Source of the DNA: a virus
Reading direction: 5' to 3' (one strand)
IMG/VR virus record: IMGVR_UViG_3300036985_003764
Span: 1 to 51,263 of that record
Length of the DNA: 51,263 nt
Below are positions 14,002 through 50,223 of this stretch, one piece after another. The notes beneath the pieces are model-generated. The model searched no databases. It was not told where the DNA came from and saw only the letters and a program-made list of their open reading frames with translations. How positions within the stretch are numbered: position 1 is the first letter of the stretch; the number at the start of each line of letters is the position of its first letter. The translations under genes and the position numbers were made by a program.

Positions 14002-16125
14002 TTACCCTAAATAATTGTCAGCGTTATATTCATCGTCTGAATTAGTTACTTTGTATTTATCAGAGTGCATAGACATAGCTAATTTAGCAATAATTTCATC
14101 TGAAGCTTCTGGTAACTCAGCTCGTAATGTTGAATAAGTATCTGAAAGTCCTGTTGTAGATGAAGTATCAGGAAAGAAATCTTTTCCTTTCATAAACATT
14201 TGAACTCCTGTATTAGGATCAGTACGATATTGTTCTCCAATTGCAGTTTCAGAATTAATTCTATCAGCACGTTCTTTATGCATAGCAATTTCTTGCATTG
14301 CAATATTATTATCTGCATTTGTAGCAGCCGTTCTATACTGTTGTTTTAATGTTGCCCACTCATTAGCATTACCTTTTACTGCAGCACTTAATCTATTAGA
14401 TGCCTGTTGAGCAATATTGGTATTCATTAACCGTTCATTATTATAAGCAGCAACATTCTTGTCAGCATACTCACTTATAACAGCATTCATTTTACCATAC
14501 TCTTGATCTGCTAACTGATTAGCTAACTGTGTTTGTGGAGAACCAAACATTCCTTGTTGTTCACCACGCGTAGAAGACAATGACTGAAAAGCATTAATTG
14601 CTTGGTCAGGATTATAATATATTGAATCAGTATAATAAGTTTCTGGAACAGGAGTAAATGGAGTAATAAAAGGAATATTACGTCTATTCTTTTTAGCTTG
14701 TGCTAAAGCTCTTCTATTTTCCCAACGATAATCCATATTGGGATCATTAGGAATACCATCAGGAATATTTTTAACATCCCATTTATATAACTTTTCTAAA
14801 TCTTTTGGATCAGCTTCTACTTGTGTAACATTCCCATTCTCATCAATAATATAAGCTTCATACTTACCATTACCTTTATATAAATATCTCTTACCTCCTT
14901 GGTCAATTCCTTCAGCATCTAATATAGGTTTTAACTTATTAAACTCATCTTGACTAACTTTTTTAACTTTAGATGTTACCATACGGTACCACCACTTATT
15001 ATCATTATATGCCTCTAATACATCAGTAGAAGCTAAACCTTTTGTAGGATCAGCTTTACGTTCAGCCATCATTTTTTTCAAATCAGCATTAGTAAAAGTA
15101 CCATCAGAACCTGTAGGTTTTATTGCTGAACGACCAGCTTTAACAGATTCTTTCATTTTGTCTTGAAGCTTATCGTTAGGTCTATGACTTTTTTGATTAT
15201 CATCACCTTCAACCATAAAATCTACTACTAAATCAGGGTTGTCTTCAATTGCTCTAAGTTGAGCTTTACTAACCTTATCCAATACAGTTTCTTTATTCCA
15301 TCCTTTTTGAGTATCAATTTTATCAATATTATAATCAGTTAAAAATTGATTCAATTGATTAATACCTTGTTCTGTAAAAGCATTTGCTTCTGTATATTCA
15401 GGAATATCAACAAAGTGTGTATGACCAGCTACCCCACCATCGTGAAACTCTACAAGCTTTTGCGTAATTGGAGTAAATGCAATAGGATTAACTTCACCAC
15501 CATACGGATATACACCACCATTTTTCATTGGTTTTTCTTCAGTGTTATCTGTTGGTGCATCTTCAAGATTATCGCCATCTAATAATTCGTCATAATTTAA
15601 ACGAGTTCTTTCTAAGAATGGTTCAAAATGACGAGAGTGTTCTTGTTGCTCACCTTTCTTTTCTTCATGAAATTGCTGAAGAGTAAATAAAAGACTTAAT
15701 TTAAAATTAGCATCTTTAATACTTTTTTCTAATGACGTTTTAGCAATCTTATCAATATTGATATCTGGGTTTTCTAAACTTTTATTTAGTTCCGATAACT
15801 TATACTGCTTACTTATATCGGCAAAAGTCTTAGGTTTATTTCCTTTATAACCAAAAAGACTAAGCATCTTCTCATCCTTTAATTTTAAATGGTCAGAAAA
15901 AATAGCACTGCCCGGAGGTAAATCTAAAAACGTACCACCATCTTCATGTGTTCTACCACCAATATGAGCAAGTTCTTTTTTATTACCAACATTACCTGAA
16001 GTAGTTAATACAGTTTCTCCTTTCTCTGCTTCTACTGTTGCTTTGTTTGGATCATCTCCAGTCAGCATAGGTGTACTTGGAGCATACTGTTTTGAACTAC
16101 TATCTTTTACAACTCTTACTTTCAT
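14002..16125 (-). CDS. Putative virion cargo protein with THEDGG domain (707 aa)
   Basis: The N-terminus carries a compact domain: VEAEKGETVLTTSGN (about residues 31-45), then GGRTHEDGGTFLDLPPGS (56-73) and IFSDHLK. A closely similar pattern recurs, in my memory, in many Bacteroidota phage structural proteins, but I cannot name its function. A MKNGGVYPYGGE segment (200-211) and FHDGG (227-231) repeat the Gly-Gly motif seen in neighbouring proteins. The remainder is charged and helical. It follows the 1044-residue gene by 2 bases. It probably belongs to the set of proteins carried in the virion; an assembly or ejection role is inferred from neighbours. Confidence 0.75.
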   Translation of the reverse strand: MKVRVVKDSSSKQYAPSTPMLTGDDPNKATVEAEKGETVLTTSGNVGNKKELAHIGGRTHEDGGTFLDLPPGSAIFSDHLKLKDEKMLSLFGYKGNKPKTFADISKQYKLSELNKSLENPDINIDKIAKTSLEKSIKDANFKLSLLFTLQQFHEEKKGEQQEHSRHFEPFLERTRLNYDELLDGDNLEDAPTDNTEEKPMKNGGVYPYGGEVNPIAFTPITQKLVEFHDGGVAGHTHFVDIPEYTEANAFTEQGINQLNQFLTDYNIDKIDTQKGWNKETVLDKVSKAQLRAIEDNPDLVVDFMVEGDDNQKSHRPNDKLQDKMKESVKAGRSAIKPTGSDGTFTNADLKKMMAERKADPTKGLASTDVLEAYNDNKWWYRMVTSKVKKVSQDEFNKLKPILDAEGIDQGGKRYLYKGNGKYEAYIIDENGNVTQVEADPKDLEKLYKWDVKNIPDGIPNDPNMDYRWENRRALAQAKKNRRNIPFITPFTPVPETYYTDSIYYNPDQAINAFQSLSSTRGEQQGMFGSPQTQLANQLADQEYGKMNAVISEYADKNVAAYNNERLMNTNIAQQASNRLSAAVKGNANEWATLKQQYRTAATNADNNIAMQEIAMHKERADRINSETAIGEQYRTDPNTGVQMFMKGKDFFPDTSSTTGLSDTYSTLRAELPEASDEIIAKLAMSMHSDKYKVTNSDDEYNADNYLG

Positions 16126-16127
16126 AA

Positions 16128-19100
16128 TTAAAGCATTTCTAATTTAAGACCAAGTTTTTTTAAATATGGTGCCAATTCATTCATATCCTCATCTGAAAGG
16201 TCATACTCTTGATTAATTTCAATTCCATTTTGAGCATAGTTTAATATACCACCATTTCTAGAAAATAGATTAACTCCTCCTGGATTTAAATCTTCATAAA
16301 CATTATTAGCTGCACCCGTACCATAAACCGTTTGGTCTGTACCTGTTCCCGGACGTACTTGATTACCTGTACGGTCAGCAATAAATTGTCCAGTTAAAGC
16401 ATTATAAACTCCTTCTCCTCCACTTGCGGGAGTTACAGCATTAAATATTCCTGCTCTAGCTTCTGCAGCTTGGTCAGATGAAGTAAGACTATTTAATAAT
16501 CTTTTCTTTTCATTTATGTTACTAGCCATGCCGTAAGTACTATCGGCAAGAACATCCCAATTTAGACCTGATTTTTGTTGAACTGCATCAAACCCTTCTG
16601 TATAGTTTATTTTACTAGCATCCTTTTTAAGCATTGAATCAAGTGATGTTTCTAAACCATTTACTGCAAAGAATGCAGGCATTTTTTTGAAACGTTTATT
16701 TTGTACATCCCAAATAATTTCACCTTTTAGTTCTCCACCTTGAGCATAAAAACCTTTTTCTGGATCATATCCTGTAGAACCTGAAGGATTAAATTGTTCA
16801 TATTTCTTTGTTTTAGTATTATAATAATTTCTAATACCTTGTTGATTTTCTCCGTAAAATTTCAACTCAGGACGACCTTTAATATCATAAGCTCCGGGAT
16901 TTGCTTTAATATATTCTTCATTTGCTGGATCATAGGCATCTACTTCTCCATCATAATTAAATCCTGTTGTATCTGGATCCATATCATTTTTACTATCCAT
17001 TGAATAGTTATCAAAGTTTTTACCATACCATGCTGAATTACCCGGTTTAAAATAATCAGGATTAGTCAAAGTAGGACTTCCACTAAAACTTACTTCACCC
17101 GTAGCTGGATCAGTTATAGAATAAGCTCTATTTAAATCACCTGTAACAGGAGTTACTGTATTAGCTGGTTTAACATAAGGAGTATCAATACCTTCTGCTT
17201 CAAGTCTATCCATTTCATCATAGATAGCTTCTTCTGTTGCATTAGAACCAAGATTAAGTAGAGCTTTCTCTTGTAATTTTTCATTATTAGCTACTGTGTT
17301 ACCATAACCAGTGCCATCAGAAGTTCCTGCTTTAGCGTTAGCTTCTTTATTTTTAAAATAATCTTCGGCTGCTTTACGTGTCCATTTATCTTCTGACTGT
17401 AAGTCTTTATATAATTGTCCTTCATTTATAGTTGGAGATGATGCTTTTCCTGCGGCATCATTTACTTGAGAATTATTTGCTTGAGGGTTATCTGTTTCAA
17501 GATAATCAGCAATACCGTTTCCATTGCTATCTGCGTTAAATCCAGAATAACCCGGATCTTCTGTTGTACCATCAACTTTAGTGTCTGTTTTATCAGTAAC
17601 TGTTTCAGCTTTTCCTGTTGCTGGATTCCACAAGATACGTTGACCAATGATTCTTTTCTTTTCTCTTCCAAACATTCCTTTTTTGTGAATATCCTCAAAA
17701 GCAATTTTTCCTTCAACTTTAGATGGATCAGACATAATCTCTTTTACTCTAGCTTGTATTGCTTCAGGAGTAGAACCCGACAAAGCACCAATTCCTTGAA
17801 TAAAAGGTTGATAGTTTCTATTTCTTATTTCTTTAGCCATATCAGTAATACCTCTTCCAAAAGGACTTGCTGAACGATACCTTGAACCATTTAAAGACCT
17901 AGCGTATTCTGATTCTTGTCCCGGAAAATAATGTTGTGTTCCACTACCATCTGATGTACTTGAACCTGACCATTGAGTACCATTCCAAATTTTATCTGAA
18001 TATTGACCACCATAAGGTTGTTTATTTCTCGTAGCCCATTGAGCATAACTTTCACCTTGCATTGGAGAAGTTGAATTACTCCCTCCTCCTGTTGTAGTTC
18101 CACTTCCTCCACTAGTTGAAGTTCCATCAGTTTCTATTTTTTTTGATGGAGCCGGTACGTCCAAAAGTGTATTATCATTCCTATGTCTGGCTATAGCATC
18201 TGCATATTGTTGATTTGAAATAACCTTATCATCCCAATCTTTATTTAAATCGTCTATATTCTTATATGTTTTTTTACCTCCAGTACCTTCAATCTCAATA
18301 CCATTTACAGCTTTTGGTAAAGGCATATTATTTTCAGGAATTTCATCAAATAAAGCAAGATTATCTTCTGTACGTTTTTTAATTAATCCTAACTTGTTAT
18401 TAGTAGTTACCCAATTAGAAATAGCACCCTTTAAATTTTCAATATAAGATTCAGTATTAGATTTATCAAACCCTTCTGTTTTACCACCATTCTTATATTT
18501 CTTCATCATTTGTGAACCAATCTCTTTAAAATCTTGAGGTGTAGGTCCACCATAACGCATAACGGAAGATTCTTGTCCTCCCATCATTGGAGATGGTTGT
18601 TGTTGTTGTTCAGGTCCACCTTGCCCCATTCCTTGAGATGGATTTTGAGGTTGAGTTTGTTGCTCTTGAATTTGCATAATAGCTTGATCTAATTGTTCAG
18701 CTACAGCGTCAGCATCGCCATTCTGTTCAATCATATCTGTAACCATCTGTTCAACTTCACGAACATCTTTTCCAACTAATTCAGCATAAACAGCAATTTG
18801 TTCATTGAGTTGTGTTTCTCCACCCAATAGCATAGGAGGTTGTCCTTGTTGCGGTGCTTCCATCATTTCTTCTTGAGGATTTGATGAGGCACCTTCCATT
18901 TGTTCTTCTTCTGGAGATTGTTGTTGAGCTTGTTGCATATTAGCCATTTCTTGCTGAATCATTTCACTAGCTTGTTGTTCACCTTGAACAAGACCTACTT
19001 GCATAATAATTTGCATGATAATTTCTGGTGGTATACCATTTTGTAACAAACCACCTATAACAACATTAGGAGGAGCTCCTTGTTGTACCATTGCTTGAAC

Positions 19101-19262
19101 TTGTTGCAATAATGCTTCCATTTGTGGATCCATACCTCCACCTTGTTGACCTCCTTGTGGAGGCATACCTTCAGGAGCCATTTGTTGCTCACCTTGAGCG
19201 GCCATTGCTATCTCTTCTGGAAGTACCCCTCCTTGTGCGTATACTCTAACTTTTCTTTTCAT
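16128..19262 (-). CDS. Gln/Met-rich putative virion protein with Gly-Gly motifs (1044 aa)
   Basis: The protein starts MKRKVRVYAQGGVLPEEIAM and continues into about 220 residues extremely rich in Gln, Met, Pro and Glu (low complexity, helical), then a Thr/Ser/Gly-rich linker and a long region of polar, repeat-like sequence. Gly-Gly motifs recur: YAQGG (8-12), MRYGG, YKNGG, FYAQGG and RNGG (1002-1005). The C-terminal tail (DLSDEDMNEL, then KKLGLKLEML) resembles the C-terminal module of the 480-residue gene. A 59-base gap ahead of the gene contains a TAAATTTG box, so it may have its own promoter. The family role is unknown; location suggests a virion cargo or tail-associated protein. Confidence 0.75.
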   Translation of the reverse strand: MKRKVRVYAQGGVLPEEIAMAAQGEQQMAPEGMPPQGGQQGGGMDPQMEALLQQVQAMVQQGAPPNVVIGGLLQNGIPPEIIMQIIMQVGLVQGEQQASEMIQQEMANMQQAQQQSPEEEQMEGASSNPQEEMMEAPQQGQPPMLLGGETQLNEQIAVYAELVGKDVREVEQMVTDMIEQNGDADAVAEQLDQAIMQIQEQQTQPQNPSQGMGQGGPEQQQQPSPMMGGQESSVMRYGGPTPQDFKEIGSQMMKKYKNGGKTEGFDKSNTESYIENLKGAISNWVTTNNKLGLIKKRTEDNLALFDEIPENNMPLPKAVNGIEIEGTGGKKTYKNIDDLNKDWDDKVISNQQYADAIARHRNDNTLLDVPAPSKKIETDGTSTSGGSGTTTGGGSNSTSPMQGESYAQWATRNKQPYGGQYSDKIWNGTQWSGSSTSDGSGTQHYFPGQESEYARSLNGSRYRSASPFGRGITDMAKEIRNRNYQPFIQGIGALSGSTPEAIQARVKEIMSDPSKVEGKIAFEDIHKKGMFGREKKRIIGQRILWNPATGKAETVTDKTDTKVDGTTEDPGYSGFNADSNGNGIADYLETDNPQANNSQVNDAAGKASSPTINEGQLYKDLQSEDKWTRKAAEDYFKNKEANAKAGTSDGTGYGNTVANNEKLQEKALLNLGSNATEEAIYDEMDRLEAEGIDTPYVKPANTVTPVTGDLNRAYSITDPATGEVSFSGSPTLTNPDYFKPGNSAWYGKNFDNYSMDSKNDMDPDTTGFNYDGEVDAYDPANEEYIKANPGAYDIKGRPELKFYGENQQGIRNYYNTKTKKYEQFNPSGSTGYDPEKGFYAQGGELKGEIIWDVQNKRFKKMPAFFAVNGLETSLDSMLKKDASKINYTEGFDAVQQKSGLNWDVLADSTYGMASNINEKKRLLNSLTSSDQAAEARAGIFNAVTPASGGEGVYNALTGQFIADRTGNQVRPGTGTDQTVYGTGAANNVYEDLNPGGVNLFSRNGGILNYAQNGIEINQEYDLSDEDMNELAPYLKKLGLKLEML

Positions 19263-19288
19263 AAGAACGTTTATATATTAAATATAGT

Positions 19289-19296
19289 CAAATTTA
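19289..19296 (-). promoter_or_regulatory. Candidate Bacteroidota -7 box TAAATTTG
   Basis: On the minus strand the intergenic gap between the 480- and 1044-residue genes contains TAAATTTG, which fits the Bacteroidota housekeeping -7 consensus TAnnTTTG, about 27 bases before the ATG at 19262. I see no good -33 TTTG at the expected distance, and such octamers arise easily in A+T-rich DNA. Confidence 0.3.
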
Positions 19297-19321
19297 AAAT
19301 AACATCTTAACTATTAAATGT

Positions 19322-20764
19322 TTAAGTTAAATCTTTAATTTTAAAACCTAATGCTTTATATTTTGCAATATCTCTAGCTGATAACTCAACATCTATATAA
19401 CTTTTTTTTGCTTTAGGTAATACTCCACCATTTTTAAAAGCTACGGGACCTTCGGTATTAGTTAAAAAAGATTTTTGTTCTTCATCAGCTATTAATGGAT
19501 TTTCAGTTGCAATATTTCTACCTTGAACATTAGTCAAAGGTCTATATCCTATTTTTCTATCTTCATCTACTGCATGTTGAAATGTAGGATGTGTTGGAGC
19601 TTTTAAATACTCTCCAGTTTTACTATTAACGCTATAGGCATGATAAAAACCATCTTCTTGTTTTGGTTGACTATAATCAAATGTTTCAGGTCTTCCTTCT
19701 GAATCCCAATAACCTCTTATGTCATACTCTGGATCATCTTGCATTAAATTATCAGGAAGAGTAGAATAAAATTTTTGAAAAGCTGTTTCTTCTTTATCTG
19801 TTAATTTAGTTATATTAACTCCACCATTTTTAAAATTATTTAAACGGGCAACGTAAATTCTTTTAGGATCTATTTTATTATCAAACATTTCTGTTCTATC
19901 GCCAATACCTTTTGTATTTGGTTGTGAACTTCTATACTTAATACCAACCCTATTACCTTTATCGTCAGTTACCCAATCTTTAAATATAACACTATGACCT
20001 GAACCATTATTTCTCCAAATTTGTGCAATATCCCCAGGTTTAGCTTCTTTATGTTCTATACGTTTACCAAGATTATAATCTTCTAATGCTTTAGTAGATA
20101 ATGTTTCTGACTTGCCTTTTTCAAAATCTTTAGCACCATACCAAGTCTTTTGAAAATTTTTAAGTTGTTCAGGTGTCATATCATTAAGCATACCTCTTTC
20201 TTGCATAGTTTTCATTGCAACTCCACACGTATATCCAGAACAGTATGTTCCGTCAGTAGCTGCAGATAAAATTTCTTGACCTCCATGCGATATAACAAAT
20301 GGAGTACCTGTCCCAGCAAATGCTTTATTATAACCACCTCCAGATACTGATTCACCAACTTTAAGTATATCATTATTAATTGGATTAGCCATATATTTAA
20401 CAGCTGTCATTACGTTACTCATTGCTGAAAATGGAGCAGTTTTAGCTTTATCACCAGCATGATATATTGCTTGTTCATTTAATAATTTAGTTCTACTACC
20501 TGTTGGATCTTCAATTTTAATATACTCTTTATTGGTGCCTGGCGCATTGATATACCAACCATCATTTTTTTTCATATATCTAGCATCTGGTCTTCCTTCA
20601 TATGAAAAATAATTACCACCATTTTGATAACTATCTATCTGTGGAGTATCCTCAATAACATAACCGCCATTTTTAAATTGTTCTATTTGTGCATCACCTA
20701 AATATACATCAACAAACTTTATAGGAATAGTTTTTGTTTTACGTTTATTGCCAGCCATAATCAT
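19322..20764 (-). CDS. Papain-like (CHAP/NlpC-type) cysteine hydrolase with Gly-Gly end modules (480 aa)
   Basis: Residues about 155-300 look like a papain-fold hydrolase: TYCSGYTC (173-180) with a candidate nucleophile Cys175, PGDIAQIW (243-250) and SGHSVIFKDW (255-264) with catalytic-type His257. Such domains are amidases or peptidases that cut peptidoglycan or proteins. A second domain (about 320-410) has LPDNL, EYDIRGYW and PTHPTF, a combination I associate with large-phage virion proteins. FKNGG occurs three times (30-34, 311-315, 443-447) and YQNGG once (46-50). The N-terminal VDVYLGDAQIEQFKNGGYVI aligns with the C-terminal IDVELSARDIAKYKALGFKI. A role in cell-wall passage during ejection is the plain reading; protein processing is the alternative. 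The start overlaps the small upstream gene by ATGA. Confidence 0.78.
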   Translation of the reverse strand: MIMAGNKRKTKTIPIKFVDVYLGDAQIEQFKNGGYVIEDTPQIDSYQNGGNYFSYEGRPDARYMKKNDGWYINAPGTNKEYIKIEDPTGSRTKLLNEQAIYHAGDKAKTAPFSAMSNVMTAVKYMANPINNDILKVGESVSGGGYNKAFAGTGTPFVISHGGQEILSAATDGTYCSGYTCGVAMKTMQERGMLNDMTPEQLKNFQKTWYGAKDFEKGKSETLSTKALEDYNLGKRIEHKEAKPGDIAQIWRNNGSGHSVIFKDWVTDDKGNRVGIKYRSSQPNTKGIGDRTEMFDNKIDPKRIYVARLNNFKNGGVNITKLTDKEETAFQKFYSTLPDNLMQDDPEYDIRGYWDSEGRPETFDYSQPKQEDGFYHAYSVNSKTGEYLKAPTHPTFQHAVDEDRKIGYRPLTNVQGRNIATENPLIADEEQKSFLTNTEGPVAFKNGGVLPKAKKSYIDVELSARDIAKYKALGFKIKDLT

Positions 20765-20898
20765 TTAGATTTGTTAGGATTCTTCATTTTAACAGGAGGT
20801 CTTTTTTTTGCAACGTCAGATGCCTTTTTAAGAATTCCTTGGTTTGTCTTCTTTTCTTTTGAAGCCGGTCTATAATATTGGTCTACATTTAAACTCAT
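20761..20898 (-). CDS. Small basic protein (45 aa), overlapping both neighbours
   Basis: A 45-codon frame starts at ATG 20898, reads MSLNVDQYYRPASKEKK and ends in a Lys/Pro/Asn-rich tail with TGA at 20761-20763. Both ends are ATGA overlaps: its ATG overlaps the TGA of the muzzle gene, and its TGA overlaps the ATG of the papain-like gene. That exact double coupling, the lack of any other use for these 130 bases and the coherent basic composition argue for a real gene. The function is unknown; it could bind nucleic acid or another tail protein. Confidence 0.7.
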   Translation of the reverse strand: MSLNVDQYYRPASKEKKTNQGILKKASDVAKKRPPVKMKNPNKSK

Positions 20899-23800: not shown

Positions 23801-25769
23801 TACATTCAGCTATCCCATATAATGCTCCATAAATTTTTAATTCTTTCTGACTTAAGAAAGGTTTATTAAACATTGTGTCTGGAGAGTGAAAGGTAAAATT
23901 CCTTTTACTATAGTTTGGATTAGGATTATAGTCTATTAAACCTTCAGCCGATTCATAACTTGTTTCTGTAGTTGAAGTAAATGGATCTGGTAATAAAGAA
24001 TTAAAAGGATAATTAGGATACAATCCTTGACGATTAAGGGCAACAGATGCAGGAATTGTATACTCACGCATATTATTTATCATTCCCTTAAACAAAACAG
24101 TTTTATTACCTTGACGAGAACCTCTTAAAATTTCATATCCAACAACATTAGGAATTGGATTTCCATTATTATCTAAAGGCGGTTGTATATTATCAAAAGC
24201 TACAGCAAGAATTCTAATTATCTTTTGACCATCAACATAATGATTTGTAATTGTACTTGCTCCTGGGCCTCCATATAAACTATTTTCTGGAAACTTATGG
24301 TGACGAATAGGTTGTCCACATAAATCAAGGTCAGGGCGACCTAATATATCAGAGTTCCAAATTTCAGGATGTAAGTCGTCATAAATTTCAGCAGACTGCC
24401 AATAACCCATTTGCCCTTCAGCAGTAACCACACCTCCGTCAGCTAAAGGAATATTTACGTTAGTTCCATTTGCTGTATTATACATTTCAAAAACATAAGG
24501 AATACCTCCTTGTAAGTTTTCAATATTATTATTATTTATAGGAAGAAATAAAGCATCTTCATTTAAAACTCCATATCCATCAGGAGTAATATAAGGCAAT
24601 GGTCCACGACCAGGAATATGATAACTCTTTGATTTATCTCCCGTATTATATATCCATCTAATAAAATAAGGATATACTTCATCTCGCATGTGACCTATAT
24701 TTACTCCACCTTTTTTATAATAGTCTTCTGGATATTCAACTACCTGCCATTTTGTAATTATTTGATTTGCTATAGGTTGATAATTAAAATCAAATTTACT
24801 AATCACATCAGTTCTTAATAAGTAATTTCCTACAGCAAACATTCCTCCTGACCTATCAGCTATTGGATTAGTAATAGGTAATGTATTTACATCAACTGCG
24901 GGCAATGTTGGATCAATTAAATCTAAAGTAATATAAGTTTGATTAGTACTATAAATTCCTACTTTATAAGCTGAAAGTTTTTCAGCAATAAATTGTACTA
25001 TTACCAATTCATATTCATCAAAATTAGGATCTAAATTTTCAAGATTAATATCTAAAGAAAAATTAATATTATCATGCTCAAATAAACTAAGATAATTTGA
25101 CATTGTAAAATAATCAGTTACCCTTTGGCTATTTACCAAATAAGCTATTTGAACATAATACATTCCATTGTAAATATTACCTCCAGAAAAACCACGCGAT
25201 AATGTTACACATGGTTGTTGTATAATTGATTCTAATAATATTCTATCGCAATCTAATACATCTGTATCAGTACAAGTAATACAGCCATCATCGTCAATGC
25301 AAATTTGAATCCACGGAACATCTTGAATATCTAAAGCTCTATCAGGATTTAATTTATCTTGCCAATAAACTCTAAAAGAACAATCAAATGTAGGGCGAGA
25401 TGCACCTGTAATTAAATGTGTTGTTTGAAAATTTAAACAAGGATCATTAACTATAGTTGTATAAGTACAAGTATCTTCATTAAATGTACCTATTTCAGAA
25501 TCTGTATTATTAGTAGAATATAAAACCCATGATGATTTTTCTAAATGTATAGCACCAATAATAGTATAAGGAGCTGAAGCACAAAACAAATTTCCAGGTT
25601 CATTACCAATTTCTCCTAAATCTCCAATATGCGTAGCCTGAATTGCATTCCTAGCATTTGTAAAAGACTGTGTATTTAAATGATAATCTCTAACATCTGT
25701 AACTAGAGCCTTATCAAATGTATTACTTGATTGCTCAACACCTCTAGAACTATTATTTTTTTTTGCCAT
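20895..25769 (-). CDS. Tail muzzle / stabilisation protein, crAss type (1624 aa)
   Basis: This large beta-rich protein directly follows the ring proteins (TAATG overlap with the 313-residue gene). The N-terminal region has NSSRGVEQSSNTFDKALVTD and DYHLNTQSFTNARNA, the pattern of the long protein that crAss-like phages place after their tail tubular genes, called tail stabilisation or muzzle protein; it forms the distal tube that gates ejection. There is no signal peptide; hydrophobic residues about 675-695 may be a buried helix or a membrane-active segment. Cys residues cluster in the first 240 residues. It is translated into the 45-codon gene through an ATGA overlap. I am confident of the family and less so of the exact position in the tail. 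Confidence 0.85.
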   Translation of the reverse strand: MAKKNNSSRGVEQSSNTFDKALVTDVRDYHLNTQSFTNARNAIQATHIGDLGEIGNEPGNLFCASAPYTIIGAIHLEKSSWVLYSTNNTDSEIGTFNEDTCTYTTIVNDPCLNFQTTHLITGASRPTFDCSFRVYWQDKLNPDRALDIQDVPWIQICIDDDGCITCTDTDVLDCDRILLESIIQQPCVTLSRGFSGGNIYNGMYYVQIAYLVNSQRVTDYFTMSNYLSLFEHDNINFSLDINLENLDPNFDEYELVIVQFIAEKLSAYKVGIYSTNQTYITLDLIDPTLPAVDVNTLPITNPIADRSGGMFAVGNYLLRTDVISKFDFNYQPIANQIITKWQVVEYPEDYYKKGGVNIGHMRDEVYPYFIRWIYNTGDKSKSYHIPGRGPLPYITPDGYGVLNEDALFLPINNNNIENLQGGIPYVFEMYNTANGTNVNIPLADGGVVTAEGQMGYWQSAEIYDDLHPEIWNSDILGRPDLDLCGQPIRHHKFPENSLYGGPGASTITNHYVDGQKIIRILAVAFDNIQPPLDNNGNPIPNVVGYEILRGSRQGNKTVLFKGMINNMREYTIPASVALNRQGLYPNYPFNSLLPDPFTSTTETSYESAEGLIDYNPNPNYSKRNFTFHSPDTMFNKPFLSQKELKIYGALYGIAECNYQHPNKHPKHVFVTDAAFIVSVIIGIGFAIAKQVGKRSTKMVRPSYYSYELLLGTAVNSSMTSPGLNAAGYAIWQGGDSALSGAETVNKNINGMVSALTGVDTTESSLNTAADTGAGTLATPGLGVKWEGAEYIYEGKDQVPTALKVIQAMPMFTTNLSQGTDLTLDLIYNFSKPRQYALQYLAYCGYESFGLPYNANRRRLINDAFYLDSQLQNYGLTQRINNILRFKTVTFDTSADVDDLIGALQDITLEDMKASDLGNDDLFGVFTRRASSHYVAFKNRLRNQYGQLTAIRQLQASYCLIDSKETSSGTIFGGDTYIGRYQEKNTFFHFYQWLYDQPDRSEWNYHLYDTVQHQAFWMDTDPFDTGEFVNSVGQAIQNAFTSGSPADIFNDIVTPSDKHCFDRLNNTGFLALKNVYMYLFHSSVRDFFVESELNIDHRDYGDLISQRHWPYLSDLPQMFDTEIIRAGNYYSLDRSLSVSQHPAVKLRWGRMQDRDYDPLKAETCYTEFPQRLIYSLPQQTLLKKDNWSVFLANNYKDFRSKISTIKAYQKTGICLFFEHEAPGIFPGVDELQLKSGTSITVGDGGLFLREMQSLINSDREHEFGSCQSRRGAINTPVGIYYLSLEQGKIFGITNGLTEVSINGNESWINQYLPYQLLLDFPNYDLLDNPVAGIGCQSVYDNEWALIYFCKKDYRVKPEFLSRMVYLSGGIFLVDGIARIETGDPNYFDNASWTMSFDPKIASFISWHDWHPDLTMGATNTFMTTKGQSVWKHNVRCDLYCNYYNQDFPFELEFQIDNLPSVTTVRSIEYYMQVFRFKENCRDRYHVLEFNFDEAVIYNSEQVSGLLKLNLTPKNNVTALAQYPIVGLNQIDILYSKEEQKYRFNQFWDITKDRGEFTITEESIWITEVNGYVKNLNPVNLNYAKAEFERKKIRHNNNRVILRRIVSGNNNMLMILNNTKIQNSSR

Positions 25770-26710
25770 TATGTAAACATTTTATAATATTTATTAAACA
25801 TAGCTGTTCTGTTTAATTGCCACATTTCTTTTAGTTCAGCAAAGTCTGGAGTATTAACAATACTTAAAGAGTTGTTTCTTGCAGCTCTTAATTTAGCATC
25901 AATTCGTGCAATAAGATTTGGATTTACTTGTTCTTGATTGGCCATTAAATTTTCAAGCAATCTTTCTTTAAAAGCATATTCATAAAAATCATTAATGTAG
26001 TCATGGTCTAAAACTAATAAAGCTCCTGATTCATCTTCCATCATACCTTGATAGTTAAGATAAATTTTTCCTGTCTTAAAAGAAGTATAAATATATCCAT
26101 CTCTAACGCGGGCAACTATTTGAGCATTCCAATTTAAATTAGGACACAAAGGATCAAAATCCATACTTTCTCCTACAAGCTTAATACGATAGAACTCTCT
26201 CCATCTTCTTGTTTCATATTTAACTTTTTGAATTAAAGTCATTTCTTGTCCTTTACAATTAATCCAAGTAGAACAGTTACAAGTATTACAACCGCAAGGT
26301 TGAGGAGATTGACAAGGATCAGGACATGCTGGTTCTGGTGTAGGACATGTAGAAGGAACTGCACAAATATCAATTGTTGGAGAACCTGGATGATACACAG
26401 GAGCAGCTAAAGGTATTTGTTCTACATGCGTTCCTTGAATTACAGGAGTCATAGTTTCATATTCACCTAAACCTAAAACATAATTAATAGTAAGTATATC
26501 ATCAGGTAGTTTTGCTCTACCATGGTCAACTTCCAATACTACATTTTTAGTTTGGTTAATCTTTAACCCTAATTCATAGTTGACACGTTTTGCAACCTTA
26601 ATGAATTGTTGGGGTTTGATTAAGTCTTCTAAATTATAAGATTCAAAATCACTTTTTATTTCAGCTAGAAGTTGATCAAACGTTTTATATTTTAAATTAT
26701 ATTTAGCCAT
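25769..26710 (-). CDS. Tail ring/tubular protein with Cys-rich insertion (313 aa)
   Basis: The N-terminus (KYKTFDQLLAEIKSDFESYN, then LEDLIKPQQFIKVAKRVNYE) and the C-terminal helices fit the crAss-like conserved tail tubular or ring proteins between portal and muzzle. In the middle, about residues 112-153, sits an insertion with nine Cys and many Pro residues, including PCGCNTCNCS, unlike the rest of the protein. The gene lies 5 bases after the P22-gp4-like gene and overlaps the muzzle start by one base. Its role is to form a ring of the neck/tail; which ring cannot be decided from sequence. The Cys-rich loop may bind metal or form disulfides at the virion surface. Confidence 0.82.
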   Translation of the reverse strand: MAKYNLKYKTFDQLLAEIKSDFESYNLEDLIKPQQFIKVAKRVNYELGLKINQTKNVVLEVDHGRAKLPDDILTINYVLGLGEYETMTPVIQGTHVEQIPLAAPVYHPGSPTIDICAVPSTCPTPEPACPDPCQSPQPCGCNTCNCSTWINCKGQEMTLIQKVKYETRRWREFYRIKLVGESMDFDPLCPNLNWNAQIVARVRDGYIYTSFKTGKIYLNYQGMMEDESGALLVLDHDYINDFYEYAFKERLLENLMANQEQVNPNLIARIDAKLRAARNNSLSIVNTPDFAELKEMWQLNRTAMFNKYYKMFT

Positions 26711-26715
26711 AATAT

Positions 26716-36400: not shown

Positions 36401-36412
36401 AGTCTTTTATTA

Positions 36413-39110: not shown

Positions 39111-39135
39111 TGTATGTTTGTTTTAAATTTACTAA

Positions 39136-40386: not shown

Positions 40387-40405
40387 AATTGTTGGTTTTT
40401 ATGTG
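40387..40405 (-). promoter_or_regulatory. A-rich leader motif of the scaffold-like gene
   Basis: The minus strand reads CACATAAAAACCAACAATT immediately before the ATG at 40386. It shares CACATAAAAA and ACCAACAA with the leader at 37418-37436. The rest of the 127-base gap up to the portal gene is A+T-rich, includes an imperfect AAACA/TGTTT dyad at 40443-40457 and holds no clear terminator. Confidence 0.5.
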
Positions 40406-40513
40406 TTTGACTTATTATAATTTAAGAATAATCTTTAGAATAAACAATTAATGTTTAAATAAATTAATAATTGATTTTAAAAAAATAGCAGTAGATAACT
40501 AAAACTAGAATTG

Positions 40514-43288: not shown

Positions 43289-43290
43289 AA

Positions 43291-45522: not shown

Positions 45523-46034
45523 CTTAAATCATATGGTAGTTTAGAACTTCCTCTAGCTTTAATTTTATTTTCTTCTTGAACATCTTCATACACTCCTTTA
45601 AAGGATTCACGAACAGCTTTAAATTCTTTTGCTACTCGTAATAAAGCTCCTATGTTTCCATCTCTACCGTCAGTAATCTCTGTATGTTTTAAATAGACAT
45701 TTAGATTTTCCAACATTGATTTTATTGCATCATAAGACCTCATTGTTGGTGTCATAAATAAATCACGACATTGGTCAATAGCATAAAGAATAGCAGGATC
45801 TTCAATGTTAAATTCTGGTTGTAAATCTTTAAGGATTTTATCTTCTCTATCGGTTTCTGAAATATTAAAATAGGGATTGTCAGGACCAACGTAAGTCATA
45901 TAATAGATATACGCAAATACTTTAACGTTATCTTCGGGGTAGGTGTCAATGATTTTCTTAAGCCAGCTAATCATGTAACAATGTTCAGTTGGTTTTACAA
46001 CTTTACCTTCTAATTCAAATAGTCTTATGTGCAT
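45519..46034 (-). CDS. Unknown protein directly upstream of terminase (171 aa)
   Basis: A soluble, helical protein beginning MHIRLFELEGKVVKPTEHCY with WLKKIIDTYPEDNVKVFAYI and GNIGALLRVAKEFKAVRES. It overlaps the nuclease gene by 20 bases and the terminase start by ATGA. The position suggests a packaging helper, and a small-terminase or DNA-recognition role is possible, but I see no helix-turn-helix and no firm family match. Confidence 0.7.
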   Translation of the reverse strand: MHIRLFELEGKVVKPTEHCYMISWLKKIIDTYPEDNVKVFAYIYYMTYVGPDNPYFNISETDREDKILKDLQPEFNIEDPAILYAIDQCRDLFMTPTMRSYDAIKSMLENLNVYLKHTEITDGRDGNIGALLRVAKEFKAVRESFKGVYEDVQEENKIKARGSSKLPYDLR

Positions 46035-46860
46035 TATATAGAATTTGTTTTTTATTAATTTGTAACCATTTTAATACAGAAATAACTTCTTTTTTTAAAT
46101 AAGGAAGTTTAATTGGGTTAACTGCTTTTACAATAGGATTACCTATAGGATCTAACGCATGAATAGGATAACCAAAATCATTTATACCTTCAATTTCAAA
46201 TTCAATATGATGTATTTCTAAAGCTCCCGGTTCTAAGTTGTAATTGTATTTAAGTATGACGTACATATAAATACTTAACTGTAACGCGTAATGATTAAAT
46301 TCGCAGTCTTCTAAATGACGTAAAGGGCCTAATAACATTTTTCTTTTTCCATCATAAAACTGATGCCCTCTTAATTTTATTTCTTTACTTGTTTTATAAT
46401 CATAAACGTCAACTTTATTTGCATAAACTTCAATTCTATCTGCTTGACCACAGATACTAGCTGACCGTAAATAAACAAAATGTTCTGGATATATTCCTTC
46501 TGATAGAGTTTGTTCTGGAGCAAATTTAGTTTTCCCTTCAATTAAAGGATTGATAATTGATAACTCAATACCATCTCTTGTGATTGTACTACATTGCAAA
46601 GTAGCTTTCTCACGTTCATTATGATACCAAGAACCTAGTTTAGTAGCACGTTCATTTTCTTTATTCCAAGCATCCATAATATCTTCAGCTTTTCTACCAA
46701 AATATTTTGGATTTTTTCCTTTAGCACATTTTTCAGCTACAGTTTTTGTGTCAAAAGGTTCCTTGAATTGTTCTACAAGTTTTGTAACACTTATCCATTG
46801 AAAATCATCATTTTCATCAATAGAAGTGTAAACGTGTCCATCTTCAATAAACTTTAACAT
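46015..46860 (-). CDS. PD-(D/E)XK superfamily nuclease (281 aa)
   Basis: Motifs in order: LGSWYHNEREKA (75-86), GQADRIEVY (138-146) with Asp141, DVYDYKTSKEI (151-161) giving D154 and K156, and HYALQLSIYMYVI (190-202), the QxxxY motif of RecB/Cas4-type exonucleases. This is a complete active site for a Mg-dependent DNase. Unlike Cas4 and AddB it lacks the four iron-sulfur Cys in the chain itself. It lies in frame with the preceding zinc-ribbon gene, separated only by TAG and ATT. Likely roles are DNA processing or recombination before packaging, or attack on foreign or host DNA. Confidence 0.88.
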   Translation of the reverse strand: MLKFIEDGHVYTSIDENDDFQWISVTKLVEQFKEPFDTKTVAEKCAKGKNPKYFGRKAEDIMDAWNKENERATKLGSWYHNEREKATLQCSTITRDGIELSIINPLIEGKTKFAPEQTLSEGIYPEHFVYLRSASICGQADRIEVYANKVDVYDYKTSKEIKLRGHQFYDGKRKMLLGPLRHLEDCEFNHYALQLSIYMYVILKYNYNLEPGALEIHHIEFEIEGINDFGYPIHALDPIGNPIVKAVNPIKLPYLKKEVISVLKWLQINKKQILYNAHKTI

Positions 46861-46863
46861 AAT

Positions 46864-47175
46864 CTAGTCTGTTTCGTTATTTAAATCTTCGTGCATTAGT
46901 TCTTCTTCATCTGTTAAAACTGCAGACCAATGACCTTCTGGACACTCGCTAGATAAACTTCTTAACTTAAATTTAAGAGAGCAACCACAGCTTCCACAAC
47001 AAGGTTGTGTATTTGCAACCATACATCTATCTCCAGTATTATCTATTAAAGAACAATCATTACATTTCTTTTCTCGTTCTGTAGCTATAATCTCAACAGC
47101 TTCTTTTTTAAAAATATTGTTTTTTATTCCCTCTAGAATTTCACTTCTATTTTTCCAAATTACTGATAAATCCAT
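46864..47175 (-). CDS. Zinc-ribbon protein (103 aa), in frame with the following nuclease
   Basis: The N-terminal helix (RSEILEGIKNNIFKKEAVEI) leads into a Cys cluster: KCNDCS (residues 38-43), DRC, then QPCCGSCGCSLKFKLRS and a last SSECPEGHW, eight Cys in all. This is a typical Zn-ribbon of small phage proteins. It overlaps the HU/IHF-like gene by 29 bases. It ends in TAG, and six bases later, in the same frame, the nuclease ATG begins. Readthrough of the single TAG would give a zinc-ribbon-nuclease fusion. It may bind DNA or assist the nuclease. Confidence 0.82.
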   Translation of the reverse strand: MDLSVIWKNRSEILEGIKNNIFKKEAVEIIATEREKKCNDCSLIDNTGDRCMVANTQPCCGSCGCSLKFKLRSLSSECPEGHWSAVLTDEEELMHEDLNNETD

Positions 47176-47491
47176 CTTTATTTAATTTTAACATTAATAC
47201 TTTTTGTTCTTCTAAAGCAATCTCAAGCTTTTTACGTTTGATTATATGCTTAAAGCTTTTTATTTTGTCGCCAGCTAAAGCAACCGTTAATTTATCTATT
47301 GACCTTTGTAATCTTTCCTTTCTAATGTGGAGTACACCTAAACCTGTTATTCTTATTCTATTTGCACCAAAGGTTTCTACTTTGTTTCGTACTATACGGT
47401 AATAATAATTTACTACATCTTCAATTAGTTCTTCTGGAGCATTTAATTCTTTAGCAATTTTAGGAATTAGATTTTTCGATTTGATCAGCAT
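47147..47491 (-). CDS. HU/IHF-like DNA-binding protein (half-length, crAss type)
   Basis: The N-terminal helices (NLIPKIAKELNAPEELIEDV) and RIRITGLGVLHIRKERLQRS (46-65) reproduce the HU/IHF start with its GFGxFxxR-like turn. The beta arm and C-terminal helix of normal HU are not recognisable; a basic helical tail (IIKRKKLEIALEEQKVLML) takes their place. crAss-like phages carry IHF-like genes near the terminase, in agreement. It probably bends or organises DNA for packaging or transcription. It ends with TAG inside the next gene and overlaps its upstream neighbour by 32 bases. Confidence 0.82.
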   Translation of the reverse strand: MLIKSKNLIPKIAKELNAPEELIEDVVNYYYRIVRNKVETFGANRIRITGLGVLHIRKERLQRSIDKLTVALAGDKIKSFKHIIKRKKLEIALEEQKVLMLKLNKDGFISNLEK

Positions 47492-47840
47492 GGTATACCT
47501 TTAAATTAATTAAAATTGTTCCTGAGTTTAATAAAGAAAAAACATTAGATAATTCTATATTTTTATTCCCCAAACCTTTACGTATAATGTAACCATCCTT
47601 AACGCATTTTATTATAAAGTTTCTTACTGTTTGAGGATTTGTAAATAATTCTAAATCTGTAACTTGTTGACAGAAATCAGAAATATTTATTTCTCCCCAT
47701 AAACCTAAGTATGATAATGTGTCCAATTGAGCAGGAGCAATACGAATATTGTTCATGAAACAATAGAAGTGCATCTGATATCTAATTATATCAAATAAAC
47801 TTAAGGGCACGTTCTTTTCTATTACTAATGCCTTTGCCAT
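47460..47840 (-). CDS. Winged-helix-like protein (126 aa)
   Basis: The sequence holds LSLFDIIRYQMHFYCFMNNI, then ISDFCQQVTDLELFTNPQTV and RNFIIKCVKDGYIIRKGLGN, a helix-turn-helix followed by a hairpin, as in winged-helix DNA-binding domains (phage replication or regulator type). It overlaps the coiled-coil gene by one base and the HU-like gene by 32. Likely a DNA-binding packaging or regulatory protein; the call rests on pattern, not on a family signature. Confidence 0.65.
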   Translation of the reverse strand: MAKALVIEKNVPLSLFDIIRYQMHFYCFMNNIRIAPAQLDTLSYLGLWGEINISDFCQQVTDLELFTNPQTVRNFIIKCVKDGYIIRKGLGNKNIELSNVFSLLNSGTILINLKVYHADQIEKSNS

Positions 47841-48100
47841 TATTCTACTTCTTTATCAATATCATTATCAGAACCTCTTGTTTTGCTCATATCTGTTTGT
47901 TGAGGATTTCTTAACTGAGCAAGTTTTACTTTAGCTAATGTTTCCTCAAAGGTGTGTTGAGCAATTAAACATTTCATTCTAGAATAGTTTTCTTGAATTT
48001 CTAATACTTCCATTTGTTCTTTCATGAAAGTTATTTGTTTTGCTTTTAACTCCAGAATCTCGTCTAAAGTTAAATTTTGAATGTTGGTTTCTTCTGACAT
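47840..48100 (-). CDS. Small coiled-coil protein heading the packaging operon (86 aa)
   Basis: The sequence MSEETNIQNLTLDEILELKA and MKEQMEVLEIQENYSRMKCL shows heptads over residues 12-65, then a polar tail ending DKEVE. It is the first gene after the terminator at 48165-48188. It lacks enzyme motifs. Its position resembles that of small packaging or regulatory proteins. The gene ends by sharing one base with the next ATG. Confidence 0.7.
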   Translation of the reverse strand: MSEETNIQNLTLDEILELKAKQITFMKEQMEVLEIQENYSRMKCLIAQHTFEETLAKVKLAQLRNPQQTDMSKTRGSDNDIDKEVE

Positions 48101-48121
48101 AATTTTAAATATTTATTGTTT

Positions 48122-48129
48122 CAAATATA
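48122..48129 (-). promoter_or_regulatory. Candidate -7 box TATATTTG of the packaging operon
   Basis: On the minus strand TATATTTG lies 22 bases before the ATG at 48100 and just after the terminator at 48165-48188, so it would be well placed to start the packaging operon. It fits the Bacteroidota TAnnTTTG. A TTTG at the usual -33 distance is not found. Confidence 0.45.
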
Positions 48130-48164
48130 CAACAAATCATTAACTAATTAATGTTTAAAATAAA

Positions 48165-48188
48165 AAAGCATCTATTACTAGATGCTTT
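48165..48188 (-). terminator. Rho-independent terminator of the lysis/small-protein block
   Basis: AAAGCATCTA (48165-48174) and TAGATGCTTT (48179-48188) make a perfect ten-pair stem with a TTAC loop on the plus-strand reading. On the minus strand the stem is followed by TTTATTTTAAAC. It lies about 31 bases after the stop codon of the 105-residue gene. Confidence 0.93.
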
Positions 48189-48218
48189 AGCTTAAGAAAT
48201 AAAATTCAAAAGGTTGCG

Positions 48219-48536
48219 TTATTTTTTTTTAGGATTGTTTCCTTTCCCATTTCTAGCTCTATTAGTAGACTGTTTTTCGTTAACAAGTTTTCCTAATTTA
48301 GTATGAGATTTATCTTTGCCATCTCCATTACCATAAGTTCCTGAATCTCTATTAGATTTATTGAGTTTTGCTCTATAATTCTTACGTTCTTCAGTAGCAT
48401 GATATTCTTTATTGTACGCGTCTTTTTTAGCCTTAGCTTCAGGATTTTCTCTAAAGTATTTTGCAGACTTACTTTTACCTTTAGAGGTTCCAGCTAATCC
48501 ATTTCTTTTCTTTGAGTTTGTTCCTGATGCTGCCAT
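48219..48536 (-). CDS. Small basic protein with GTYGNGDGKD signature (105 aa)
   Basis: The protein is very basic (many Lys, Arg, Asn) and contains KSAKYFRENPEAKAKKDAYN, then NYRAKLNKSNRD and GTYGNGDGKDKSH. I recall the last motif (NRxxGTYGNGDxKDxSH) from small late proteins of many unrelated large phages, without a known function. Its start overlaps the stop of the 40-residue gene (TAATG), so the two are coupled. A DNA- or RNA-binding or virion-packaged role is conceivable from its charge. Confidence 0.8.
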   Translation of the reverse strand: MAASGTNSKKRNGLAGTSKGKSKSAKYFRENPEAKAKKDAYNKEYHATEERKNYRAKLNKSNRDSGTYGNGDGKDKSHTKLGKLVNEKQSTNRARNGKGNNPKKK

Positions 48537-48658
48537 TACTTTTTCTTTTTAGTTGTGGATTTATTCATCCTCTGTCCAACCATCATTCCTGCAGTAAAAG
48601 CTTTTTTACTTTTCTCCCCACATTCTGATTTTTTTGGTGTTTTCTTAGTTGTTGCCAT
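48536..48658 (-). CDS. Tiny Lys-rich protein (40 aa)
   Basis: From ATG 48658 the frame reads MATTKKTPKKSECGEKSKKA and continues with FTAGMMVGQRMN to a Lys tail, stopping with TAA at 48536-48538. The stop shares its last A with the ATG of the next gene. The leader has ATAAAAACCAA, as in other late genes. Coupling, leader and coherent composition support a real gene. Function unknown. Confidence 0.72.
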   Translation of the reverse strand: MATTKKTPKKSECGEKSKKAFTAGMMVGQRMNKSTTKKKK

Positions 48659-48674
48659 TTGGTTTTTATTTTAA

Positions 48675-49271
48675 TTATAAATTAGTAGTAGTAATTAACG
48701 TATATGAAAATGAATTTCCATGAATAGCTTTTGCCTTATTCATAATTACCATAAACTCTTTAAAGTCTTTTAGTCTTTTAAATACTTGACATCCTTCACT
48801 CCAGTTCTCAACATATTCAGATTGAGTCTTAGGATTTGACCTATGACCATTGATTCCAAAAACTCCTTCAACAATTAATGTTTCATCAAAAATCATATCC
48901 TTGTTTTTATCTCTCCATCCTTTACAAGGTTTTACCTGACGCATGGCTTCATATTTGCCTTGATGAAAACCAATTGTCCACATACCTCTATATTGTCCGG
49001 GAATCAATCTAAATACACCTGCAGGATTATGAAACTCTTTCATTGCTTTTGTTCCAGGATCAGTTGTAATATCCCATTCGTGAAATTTCCAAACTCCTGT
49101 TTCATCTTTATAAGATAAAGTCATCTTATCGTCAAAAAGATTAGTTACCTTTCTTCCCGGCAATAAGTTTCTTACACCAACAATGTTTACATCATAGCTT
49201 TTGTTTGCGTCATCATTAAACCAAACATATCCCTTTGCTTTTACAGCAGATTCTATTCCTTCTCTTGTCAT
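48675..49271 (-). CDS. L,D-transpeptidase-like (YkuD-fold) putative endolysin (198 aa)
   Basis: The key motif is GINGHRSNPKTQ (139-150) with His143, then NWSEGCQVFKR (156-166) with Ser158, Gly160 and Cys161, the HxnSxGC pattern of YkuD-type L,D-transpeptidases and of a related family frequent in Bacteroidota phages and prophages. Because it stands in the lysis block with holin and spanin genes, a peptidoglycan-cleaving endolysin is the most likely role. No signal peptide is visible, so release would need the holin. It follows the 33-codon frame by 7 bases. Confidence 0.78.
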   Translation of the reverse strand: MTREGIESAVKAKGYVWFNDDANKSYDVNIVGVRNLLPGRKVTNLFDDKMTLSYKDETGVWKFHEWDITTDPGTKAMKEFHNPAGVFRLIPGQYRGMWTIGFHQGKYEAMRQVKPCKGWRDKNKDMIFDETLIVEGVFGINGHRSNPKTQSEYVENWSEGCQVFKRLKDFKEFMVIMNKAKAIHGNSFSYTLITTTNL

Positions 49272-49278
49272 AATTAAT

Positions 49279-49380
49279 TTATTTAACTTTTTTAAGATTT
49301 GAATTTTTACGTTTAGCTGAGGGAGATGCTTCTATTGCATCTAAATGCTCTTTAAGTGTAAATACTTTTGGTTCTGCCGT
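49279..49380 (-). CDS. Small protein with apparent ACG start (33 codons)
   Basis: A coding-like frame reads (T)AEPKVFTLKEHLDAIEASPS and ends in basic KNSNLKKVK with TAA at 49279-49281. No ATG, GTG or TTG opens it: the first codon placed exactly in the stop overlap (TAACG in place of TAATG) is ACG at 49378-49380. The junction is otherwise identical in layout to the TAATG overlap at 48536. Options: ACG initiation, a -1 slip at the AAAAAG just before the stop of the upstream gene (which would fuse the two), or a sequence error at one base. The amino-acid pattern supports coding. Confidence 0.5.
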   Translation of the reverse strand, partial: TAEPKVFTLKEHLDAIEASPSAKRKNSNLKKVK

Positions 49381-49724
49381 TACTTTTTCTTTTTAACAAC
49401 ACCACCTTTTTTGTAAGTTGCTCCGCCATTCTTTCTTACAGTTTTATTATATACTGTACCGTCAGGTTTTGTTACTTTAATATATGTTGTACCATCTGCT
49501 GCTGAGTATGTTTTGGTATTTACTCCAGCACTACTAGTATAATTTTTACCTCTTAACCCAAGTGCTGAATTTATACTTTGTAGTGTATTTTCTTGCACTG
49601 TATCTCTTTTTGCTGTACCCATGCCATTTTCTGCTTTAGGAACTCTTTTTGTAACAGTTCCGTTTTTTGCTTTAGGAGTTCTTTTTGCAGTAGCTCCTCC
49701 AGTTTTCATCATTTTAGTTTTCAT
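49380..49724 (-). CDS. Lys/Gly-rich protein with Gly-Gly motifs (114 aa)
   Basis: The sequence begins MKTKMMKTGGATAKRTPKAK and ends RKNGGATYKKGG plus a Lys tail. Between them lies a short segment with KNYTSSAGVNTKTYSAADGT and YIKVTKPDGTVY, two beta hairpins. The KTGG/KNGG/KKGG motifs recur in the neighbouring small genes and in the large cargo genes. Function unknown; the charge suggests a virion-packaged or nucleic-acid-associated protein. It ends in the ACG overlap. Confidence 0.72.
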   Translation of the reverse strand: MKTKMMKTGGATAKRTPKAKNGTVTKRVPKAENGMGTAKRDTVQENTLQSINSALGLRGKNYTSSAGVNTKTYSAADGTTYIKVTKPDGTVYNKTVRKNGGATYKKGGVVKKKK

Positions 49725-49746
49725 TTTATTTTGATTTAGTTAAATT

Positions 49747-50043
49747 TTACTTTTTATTTTTGGATAAACTAGGATTAAAAAAAGAATTAGTTTTTTTGGT
49801 TACTCCTCCCTTTTTTTGAAACTCCATAGCCCCCTCTGCATTTTCCATTTTTGTCTTGTTTATCAGCTCATTAGAATATTCAGAACCTTTAAGTGTATTA
49901 AGATATGCTCTATATTGCGCTGGTGACATATCACTAGGATTTACATAATCCTCTTTTACATTTAATGCTCCAGACTGTATTTGACCTTCTGCTTTTCTTA
50001 CTGCTCTATCAAATTTTCTAGCAGTTCTTTTTGGACTCCTCAT
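49747..50043 (-). CDS. Basic protein of unknown function (98 aa)
   Basis: The protein starts MRSPKRTARKFDRAVRKAEG, contains DMSPAQYRAYLNTLKGSEYS and ends with FQKKGGVTKKTN and a Lys-rich tail. It carries KKGG (77-80). It lies 21 bases after the 52-codon gene and 22 before the 114-residue gene. No known domain. The basic start and the Gly-Gly tail place it with the other small late proteins. Confidence 0.7.
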   Translation of the reverse strand: MRSPKRTARKFDRAVRKAEGQIQSGALNVKEDYVNPSDMSPAQYRAYLNTLKGSEYSNELINKTKMENAEGAMEFQKKGGVTKKTNSFFNPSLSKNKK

Positions 50044-50064
50044 AATTTCCTATTGTTTATAAAA

Positions 50065-50223
50065 TTAACATTTTTTTGACTTAACCATTCCACCTTTTTT
50101 AGCTTTAACCATGGTTTTAGATGTTGTACCACCATTACTCATTTTTTTATGAGTAGTTCCACTACATTTCATACAACCACCTTTCTTCATAGGAGATTTG
50201 CATTTTGAACACATTGTTTTCAT
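50065..50223 (-). CDS. Tiny Cys- and Lys-rich protein with two CxxC (52 aa)
   Basis: From ATG 50223 the frame reads MKTMCSKCKSPMKKGGCMKC and continues with SNGG, KAKKGGMVKSKKC to TAA at 50065-50067. The two CxxC pairs (residues 5-8 and 17-20) form a potential zinc knuckle; KKGG occurs at 13-16 and 42-45, SNGG at 29-32. It fills the only gap between the 70- and 98-residue genes (2 bases after the former), which supports a real gene. Function unknown. Confidence 0.73.
   Translation of the reverse strand: MKTMCSKCKSPMKKGGCMKCSGTTHKKMSNGGTTSKTMVKAKKGGMVKSKKC

Follow-up and report, generated by a model that had tools for sequence, protein, structure and literature searches.

Gly-Gly elements in presumed cargo proteins and small basic proteins of a crass-like phage: candidate address elements for virion packaging

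Genome, lineage and presumed cargo genes

The window analysed here, i.e. the complete stretch of 51,263 nucleotides of IMG/VR record IMGVR_UViG_3300036985_003764 from which 41 genes were translated, displays the gene order of PhicrAss001: head genes, ring-type proteins, muzzle, cargo genes and large proteins of the RNA-polymerase region. Its terminase has low-identity matches in 106 records of crass-like and Flavobacterium phages, its MCP has low-identity matches to csAssE-Sib and Cellulophaga phages, and its muzzle is homologous to those of phi17:2 and Leptolyngbya phage Lbo-JY46. Judged from these three homologies together with the gene order, the window is a crass-like phage; because of the low identities, this label alone and not the formal order Crassvirales is claimed. 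A search for near-identical DNA of the window among phages yielded no match. Relatives of the MCP are encoded in at least 598 stretches of viral contigs, and about 20 relatives were sampled, comprising cargo regions and regions upstream of the MCP. Among named isolates, the MCP is best matched in PP438436 (loci L130 and L135), whose recorded host, the cyanobacterium Leptolyngbya boryana, is unusual for crass-like phages.

Next to the cargo region, a gene for a GIY-YIG homing endonuclease (13312-13953, minus strand; region 11441-13953) begins with MATYLQG, as does the gene of the 623-aa family that follows it; the start of this family reads MATYLAG in the window and MATYLQG in relatives. From these sequences, the endonuclease gene looks to have been inserted just behind the start of the 623-aa family gene, with restoration of that start.

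Three genes are presumed, on the basis of gene order and distant homologues, to code for cargo proteins:

19322..20764, minus strand: 480-aa presumed cargo gene (A position) for an accessory mosaic protein; 4 motif copies vs 0.14 expected
20663-20674, 20615-20626, 19820-19831 and 19424-19435, minus strand: four [FY][KQ]NGG sites of the 480-aa protein
19847..20299, minus strand: presumed papain/NlpC-like region of the 480-aa protein (CSGYTC ... GHSVIF), from its sequence pattern
16128..19262, minus strand: 1044-aa presumed cargo gene (B position); broad motif 13-fold enriched in the B family of relatives
Minus strand: motif sites of the 1044-aa protein, i.e. YAQGG (19227-19241), MRYGG, YKNGG (18483-18494), YAQGG (16734-16748) and RNGG (16248-16259)
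14002..16125, minus strand: 707-aa presumed cargo gene; one MKNGG at 15514-15525

The 707-aa protein matches phi17:2 gp041, which is recorded as a virion structural protein. In distant relatives (L089-L100), the 707 family ends in a different conserved sequence, KKGG..YVMGSNVFPFMFY-COOH, which the window protein lacks. The 480-aa gene is missing from the closest relative (G001), where a 45-aa and then a 1152-aa gene follow the muzzle, and is therefore accessory, yet it carries the same elements. Its product is a mosaic: directly behind three of its four GG motifs lie modules (residues 52-102, residues 316-430 and the C-terminal module) that are found rearranged in the cargo proteins of relatives. 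Two small modules of this protein, Y.YxxRPxSxYKKxxGKWLIKN...DPKGtRTKxLN (20459-20611) and LTxxEExxFQxFYxxLPxNL...DGYYHaYS (19475-19819), are likewise found differently arranged in the cargo of relatives; no family name was found for either. For the 480-aa protein, tblastn in phages gave no match and neither a PDB sequence search nor Foldseek a significant one, and Pfam and PHROGs returned nothing useful for the cargo genes of the window and its relatives apart from an endolysin hint in L091.

Recurrence and context of the Gly-Gly motif

The first-pass annotation had reported the motif [KRQ][NKQ]GG from six genes, i.e. the three cargo genes and genes for small proteins of 114, 98 and 52 residues, and translation of the window genes located the sites in the genes it named. 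Copies were counted in the 41 window proteins against 1000 shuffles preserving the composition of each protein. Fourteen copies were observed vs 2.40 expected, a number attained by 0 of the 1000 shuffles, which bears out the recurrence in the six genes; plain GG was not enriched (89 vs 82.6 expected). Thirteen of the 14 copies reside in these genes, eight in the cargo genes, where 0.70 are expected, and five in the small genes, where 0.20 are expected, and all other genes together hold one (1.46 expected), i.e. a chance-level YKKGG at 24705-24716 in the 1624-aa tail (muzzle-like) protein. QQGG at 19137-19148 lies within a Gln-rich stretch and is given little weight, and SNGG of the 52-aa protein, previously listed as a copy, falls outside the pattern as originally defined. 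The description of the six proteins as unrelated holds in part, since one C-terminal module is common to the 480- and 1044-aa proteins. Codons at the motif sites vary synonymously, and the recurrence is therefore one at the protein level.

Across the relatives, [KRQ][NKQ]GG was enriched exclusively in three families encoded after the muzzle, namely gene A (33 vs 5.1), gene B (1044-like; 29 vs 7.2) and the 707-like family (11 vs 4.2); homologues are non-independent samples, so shuffle counts overstate significance and the ratios count for more. Zero copies were found in portal, terminase and the 416-aa gene, whose product has a net charge of -28, and the 623-like and 2293-like families remained below chance. 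Within the cargo families, GG is preceded by His/Met/Tyr/Phe at -3 and Ala/Gln/Arg/Lys at -2 and has Ile/Val/Leu as the second residue after it; GG in other proteins lacks the aromatic/Met context. Counted as the broader linker motif [YFMH][AKRQ]xGG, this context occurs in the relatives 73 times in B, where 5.5 are expected (13-fold), 42 times in A (4.0 expected) and 24 times in the 707 family (3.7 expected), with none in portal or terminase. The broad motif, defined on the environmental relatives alone, was next tested on five named phages held out from its definition; there, the genes between muzzle and RNA-polymerase block contained 12 vs 1.77 and other large proteins 4 vs 5.05. On this comparison of sequences, [KRQ][NKQ]GG is a fragment of three larger elements: the linker motif, an acidic C-terminal module and a basic C-terminal tag.

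Cargo gp45 (C1) of PhicrAss001 resembles the window cargo in the location of its gene directly after the muzzle, in its length and Gly-richness and in enrichment of the same [YFH][A]xGG motif; it differs by lacking the acidic C-terminal module and BLAST-level homology to the 480- and 1044-aa proteins. Ten gp45 homologues contain 19 copies of [YFMH][AKRQ]xGG vs 2.64 expected, with GG pairs conserved at 427-428 and 562-563 (10/10 each), 447-448 (9/10), and 209-210 and 828-829 (7/10 each), and many of them end in a looser form of the basic tag (KGG plus Lys). The cargo nature of gp45 was established by cryo-EM, in which the portal wing carries the ordered residues 425-552, and residues 214-245 are resolved within the tail barrel (PMC10172136); PDB entries containing gp45 are 7qog, 7qoi, 7qoj, 7qol and 8ckb. 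Relative to these docked segments (PMC10172136), the pairs 209-210, 427-428 and 562-563 are adjoining ones: 209-210 stands four residues before segment 214-245, and the AFGG motif with GG 427-428 forms the first ordered residues of the portal domain. This placement supports a location of GG at the borders of docked segments and counts against a cut after residue 428. The portal domain of gp45 and the N-terminal domain of the 707 family gave a weak hhalign match (probability 65 over 33 columns).

Gly-Gly is a cleavage site of certain cysteine peptidases, and a papain-like nature of one motif carrier, the 480-aa protein, had led to the proposal that GG marks a processing site. Its CSGYTC ... GHSVIF region is presumed to be papain-like from a sequence pattern resembling NlpC/P60 and CHAP enzymes; Pfam, PDB and Foldseek yielded nothing for it, and 2251 proteins of relatives contained no homologue of the presumed catalytic region. 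Cleavage at GG by the 480-aa protein is not supported, as the closest relative lacks this gene and retains the motif; the presumed protease gene is thus not present everywhere the motif is. More generally, a phage protease could cut after GG during head maturation and remove C-terminal tags in the way T4 gp21 removes propeptides, for which the position of GG at module borders and just before C-terminal tags would be suitable. We regard this as quite improbable, given that residues following GG differ widely between sites, that at the C-termini they are conserved to the stop codon, and that the ordered range 425-552 of gp45 (PMC10172136) crosses GG 427-428.

Acidic and basic C-terminal elements

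The acidic module comprises about 25 residues, GG..DL[ST]xEEIxxFLxxG[YG]xIExL-COOH, and is common to successive cargo proteins: in relatives, the last 25-30 residues of A and B align as GG, a few residues, DL[ST]xEEIxxFLxxG[YG]xIExL and stop. A profile built with the window and its closest relative excluded from the seeds detected three copies in the window:

20645..20716, minus strand: internal acidic-module copy FVDVYLGDAQIEQFKNGGYVIEDT, residues 19-39 of the 480-aa protein (9.2 bits, held-out profile)
19325..19438, minus strand: C-terminal FKNGG and acidic module FKNGGVLPKAKKSYIDVELSARDIAKYKALGFKIKDLT-COOH, residues 445-479 of the 480-aa protein (9.5 bits, held-out profile)
16131..16229, minus strand: C-terminal acidic module NGIEINQEYDLSDEDMNELAPYLKKLGLKLEML-COOH of the 1044-aa protein (8.9 bits, held-out profile; same ending in the closest relative)

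The window copies are weak singly (E 0.03-0.06), yet they occur at the expected places; the best shuffled or reversed match scored 4.2 bits, and every match above 8 bits fell in an A- or B-type gene. Beyond the seeds, internal copies were detected in gene A of relatives (E down to 8e-8). AlphaFold predicted an extended-helix-extended arrangement for the C-terminal module of the 480-aa protein (pLDDT 85-91 over the module, pTM 0.38). By six-frame searches, the module was detected in most records reaching the cargo region; a first-look search of this type missed relatives such as G002 and G005, though their B genes carry it. In the isolate Lbo-JY46 (PP438436), the second gene after the muzzle homologue ends, as in the window lineage, in an acidic module, FQQGGYNLGEEIDLSPEEVAKLIELGYDFEVV-COOH (E 2e-8, profile built on others); unlike in the window, the gene directly after the muzzle lacks the module, and the recorded host is a cyanobacterium. 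Profile and six-frame searches of PhicrAss001 and phi17:2 detected no acidic module, and the match in csAssE-Sib is weak and internal.

The three small genes and the related slot in the head-gene cluster are:

49380..49724, minus strand: 114-aa basic protein with basic tag YKKGGVVKKKK-COOH (49383-49415; basic-tag set) and a further KNGG (49422-49433)
49747..50043, minus strand: 98-aa basic protein with QKKGGVTKK (49804-49815; motif count), a looser form located 22 residues from the end
50065..50223, minus strand: 52-aa Cys/Lys-rich protein with basic tag AKKGGMVKSKKC-COOH (50068-50103; basic-tag set), a further KKGG (50176-50187) and SNGG (50128-50139)
36401..36412, no strand: empty slot of 12 bases between the 334- and 232-aa genes, a variable island in relatives

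The basic tag, KKGGxVKxKKK-COOH, ends 62 of 1785 distinct proteins of relatives and window, compared with 5.4 for shuffled C-termini and 6.0 for internal stretches. Without their tags, the 62 proteins form 22 BLAST clusters, the largest of which is probably joined by Lys-rich stretches. The logo reads KKGG[ST]VK[KSR]KKK-COOH, mostly with 5-8 residues after GG and with Val/Ile at +2 in 50 of the 62. Among 60 tagged genes in MCP loci of relatives, 52 lie between homologues of the 334- and 232-aa genes, 5 after the 334 gene in contigs ending before the 232 gene, and 3 before the terminase. The last position is also that of the tagged window genes, the 334/232 slot being empty there. In relatives (loci L002-L081), this slot is hypervariable and contains 0-10 small basic genes; of 50 slots for which both flanks are present, 44 are occupied, 31 of these 44 with a tagged gene among others. 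By eye, the N-terminus of the 98-aa protein resembles a tagged protein of L110; that of the 52-aa protein resembles island proteins of relatives (e.g. L023, L064). No match was obtained by tblastn in phages for the 114-aa protein and the L110 counterpart, nor by Pfam and PHROGs for ten basic-tagged proteins each.

Two side observations concern the distribution of such ends. The portal protein ends in a basic tag, YDKGGSVKNKK-COOH, in two relatives (L035, 5863-8613; L065, 1698-4448). Variants MKKGGRVKKKKK or YKKGGKVKKKKK end proteins of L159, L162, L171, L177, L180 and L181, i.e. in stretches without homologues of the window lineage, and similar ends therefore occur in other kinds of phage; no identity was found for the 600-aa protein with a similar basic end in L162.

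An artefact would have the motif reflect Lys/Gly-rich composition, or a ribosome-binding site or promoter read as protein, and indeed the genome is AT-rich and Lys-rich and AAAGGTGG looks like a ribosome-binding site. We consider this hardly credible: both forms are contradicted by the shuffle tests, by synonymous codon variation and by a search of 2.9 million viral contigs with the tag's 12 codons as pattern, which returned 38 stretches vs 0 for a permuted pattern. Thirty of these 38 hold structural-gene homologues of the window lineage, and 28 records have its MCP. AGY as well as TCN codons are used for Ser after GG, which points to selection on the protein, and GGAGG occurs in only 8 of the 62 tags.

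For the small proteins, the main rival explanation sees them as histone-like condensers of packaged DNA that need no docking partner; their basic tags would be tails that bind DNA unspecifically, and the GG linkers would be no more than flexible hinges. The tags are almost pure Lys, their island neighbours are basic as well (including DUF5872 and DUF6321 proteins), and all four GG sites of the 480-aa protein lie in low-confidence linkers of the predicted model (mean pLDDT 51). A generic Lys tail would not demand so exact a logo, with KKGG, Val/Ile at +2 and constant spacing from the carboxyl end; DNA binding is no explanation for the acidic module; and linkers of other proteins lack the aromatic/Met context. 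Overall, this explanation appears unlikely to us.

A possible role as address elements

GG stands before the acidic C-terminal module of A and B, at module borders and inside the basic tag of the small proteins. With a confidence slightly above even, we propose from these sequence patterns that the GG motif is the core of short address elements and that the tags dock virion proteins for packaging and ordering. During head assembly, the tags would dock proteins on partners that they have in common (portal, scaffold, tail barrel or each other), and the [aromatic][A/K]xGG linkers may act as hinges flanking docked segments of long, poorly folded cargo, which would later be threaded out via the tail, its residues probably uncut at GG. 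The first-pass annotation had suggested a shared function, among others as a packaging/ejection tag or as contact for a common partner; this part stands as an inference, given that the motif is confined to cargo-type genes, occurs at C-termini and is enriched in the known cargo gp45, while the processing part was not sustained. A more far-reaching version, a two-code address, is put forward tentatively and is in our view rather doubtful: many unrelated proteins of the lineage, including those of the hypervariable island, would be loaded via C-terminal GG tags of opposite charge (KKGGxVKxKKK-COOH and GG..L[ST]xEEIxxFLxxGGxIEYL-COOH) binding a common core or each other, such that the tag alone would predict the packaged and injected set.

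Short sequences common to otherwise different packaged proteins are known from the capsid-targeting sequence of T4 internal proteins, which is N-terminal and removed by the prohead protease; the tags of the window lineage, by comparison, are both C-terminal, of other sequence and of two charge types. The encapsulin cargo-loading peptide is a short C-terminal peptide on unrelated cargo, joined by a Gly-rich linker, and in this respect similar to the basic tag with its 22 clusters; it differs in sequence and in its host particle, which is here a phage head with DNA. By analogy, the tags thus resemble capsid-targeting and cargo-loading peptides, membership in neither being claimed. In the literature searched, which covered few subscription journals, no description of such tags or of Lbo-JY46 was found.

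The tags bear on the way in which crass-like and other podophages select, load and order their injected proteins, for which gp45 of PhicrAss001 provides a concrete test case, since this phage is in culture and structures are available. Should the tags be packaging signals, a single short sequence would suffice to predict which proteins are packaged by an abundant group of environmental phages, and these would include many small proteins of unknown function.
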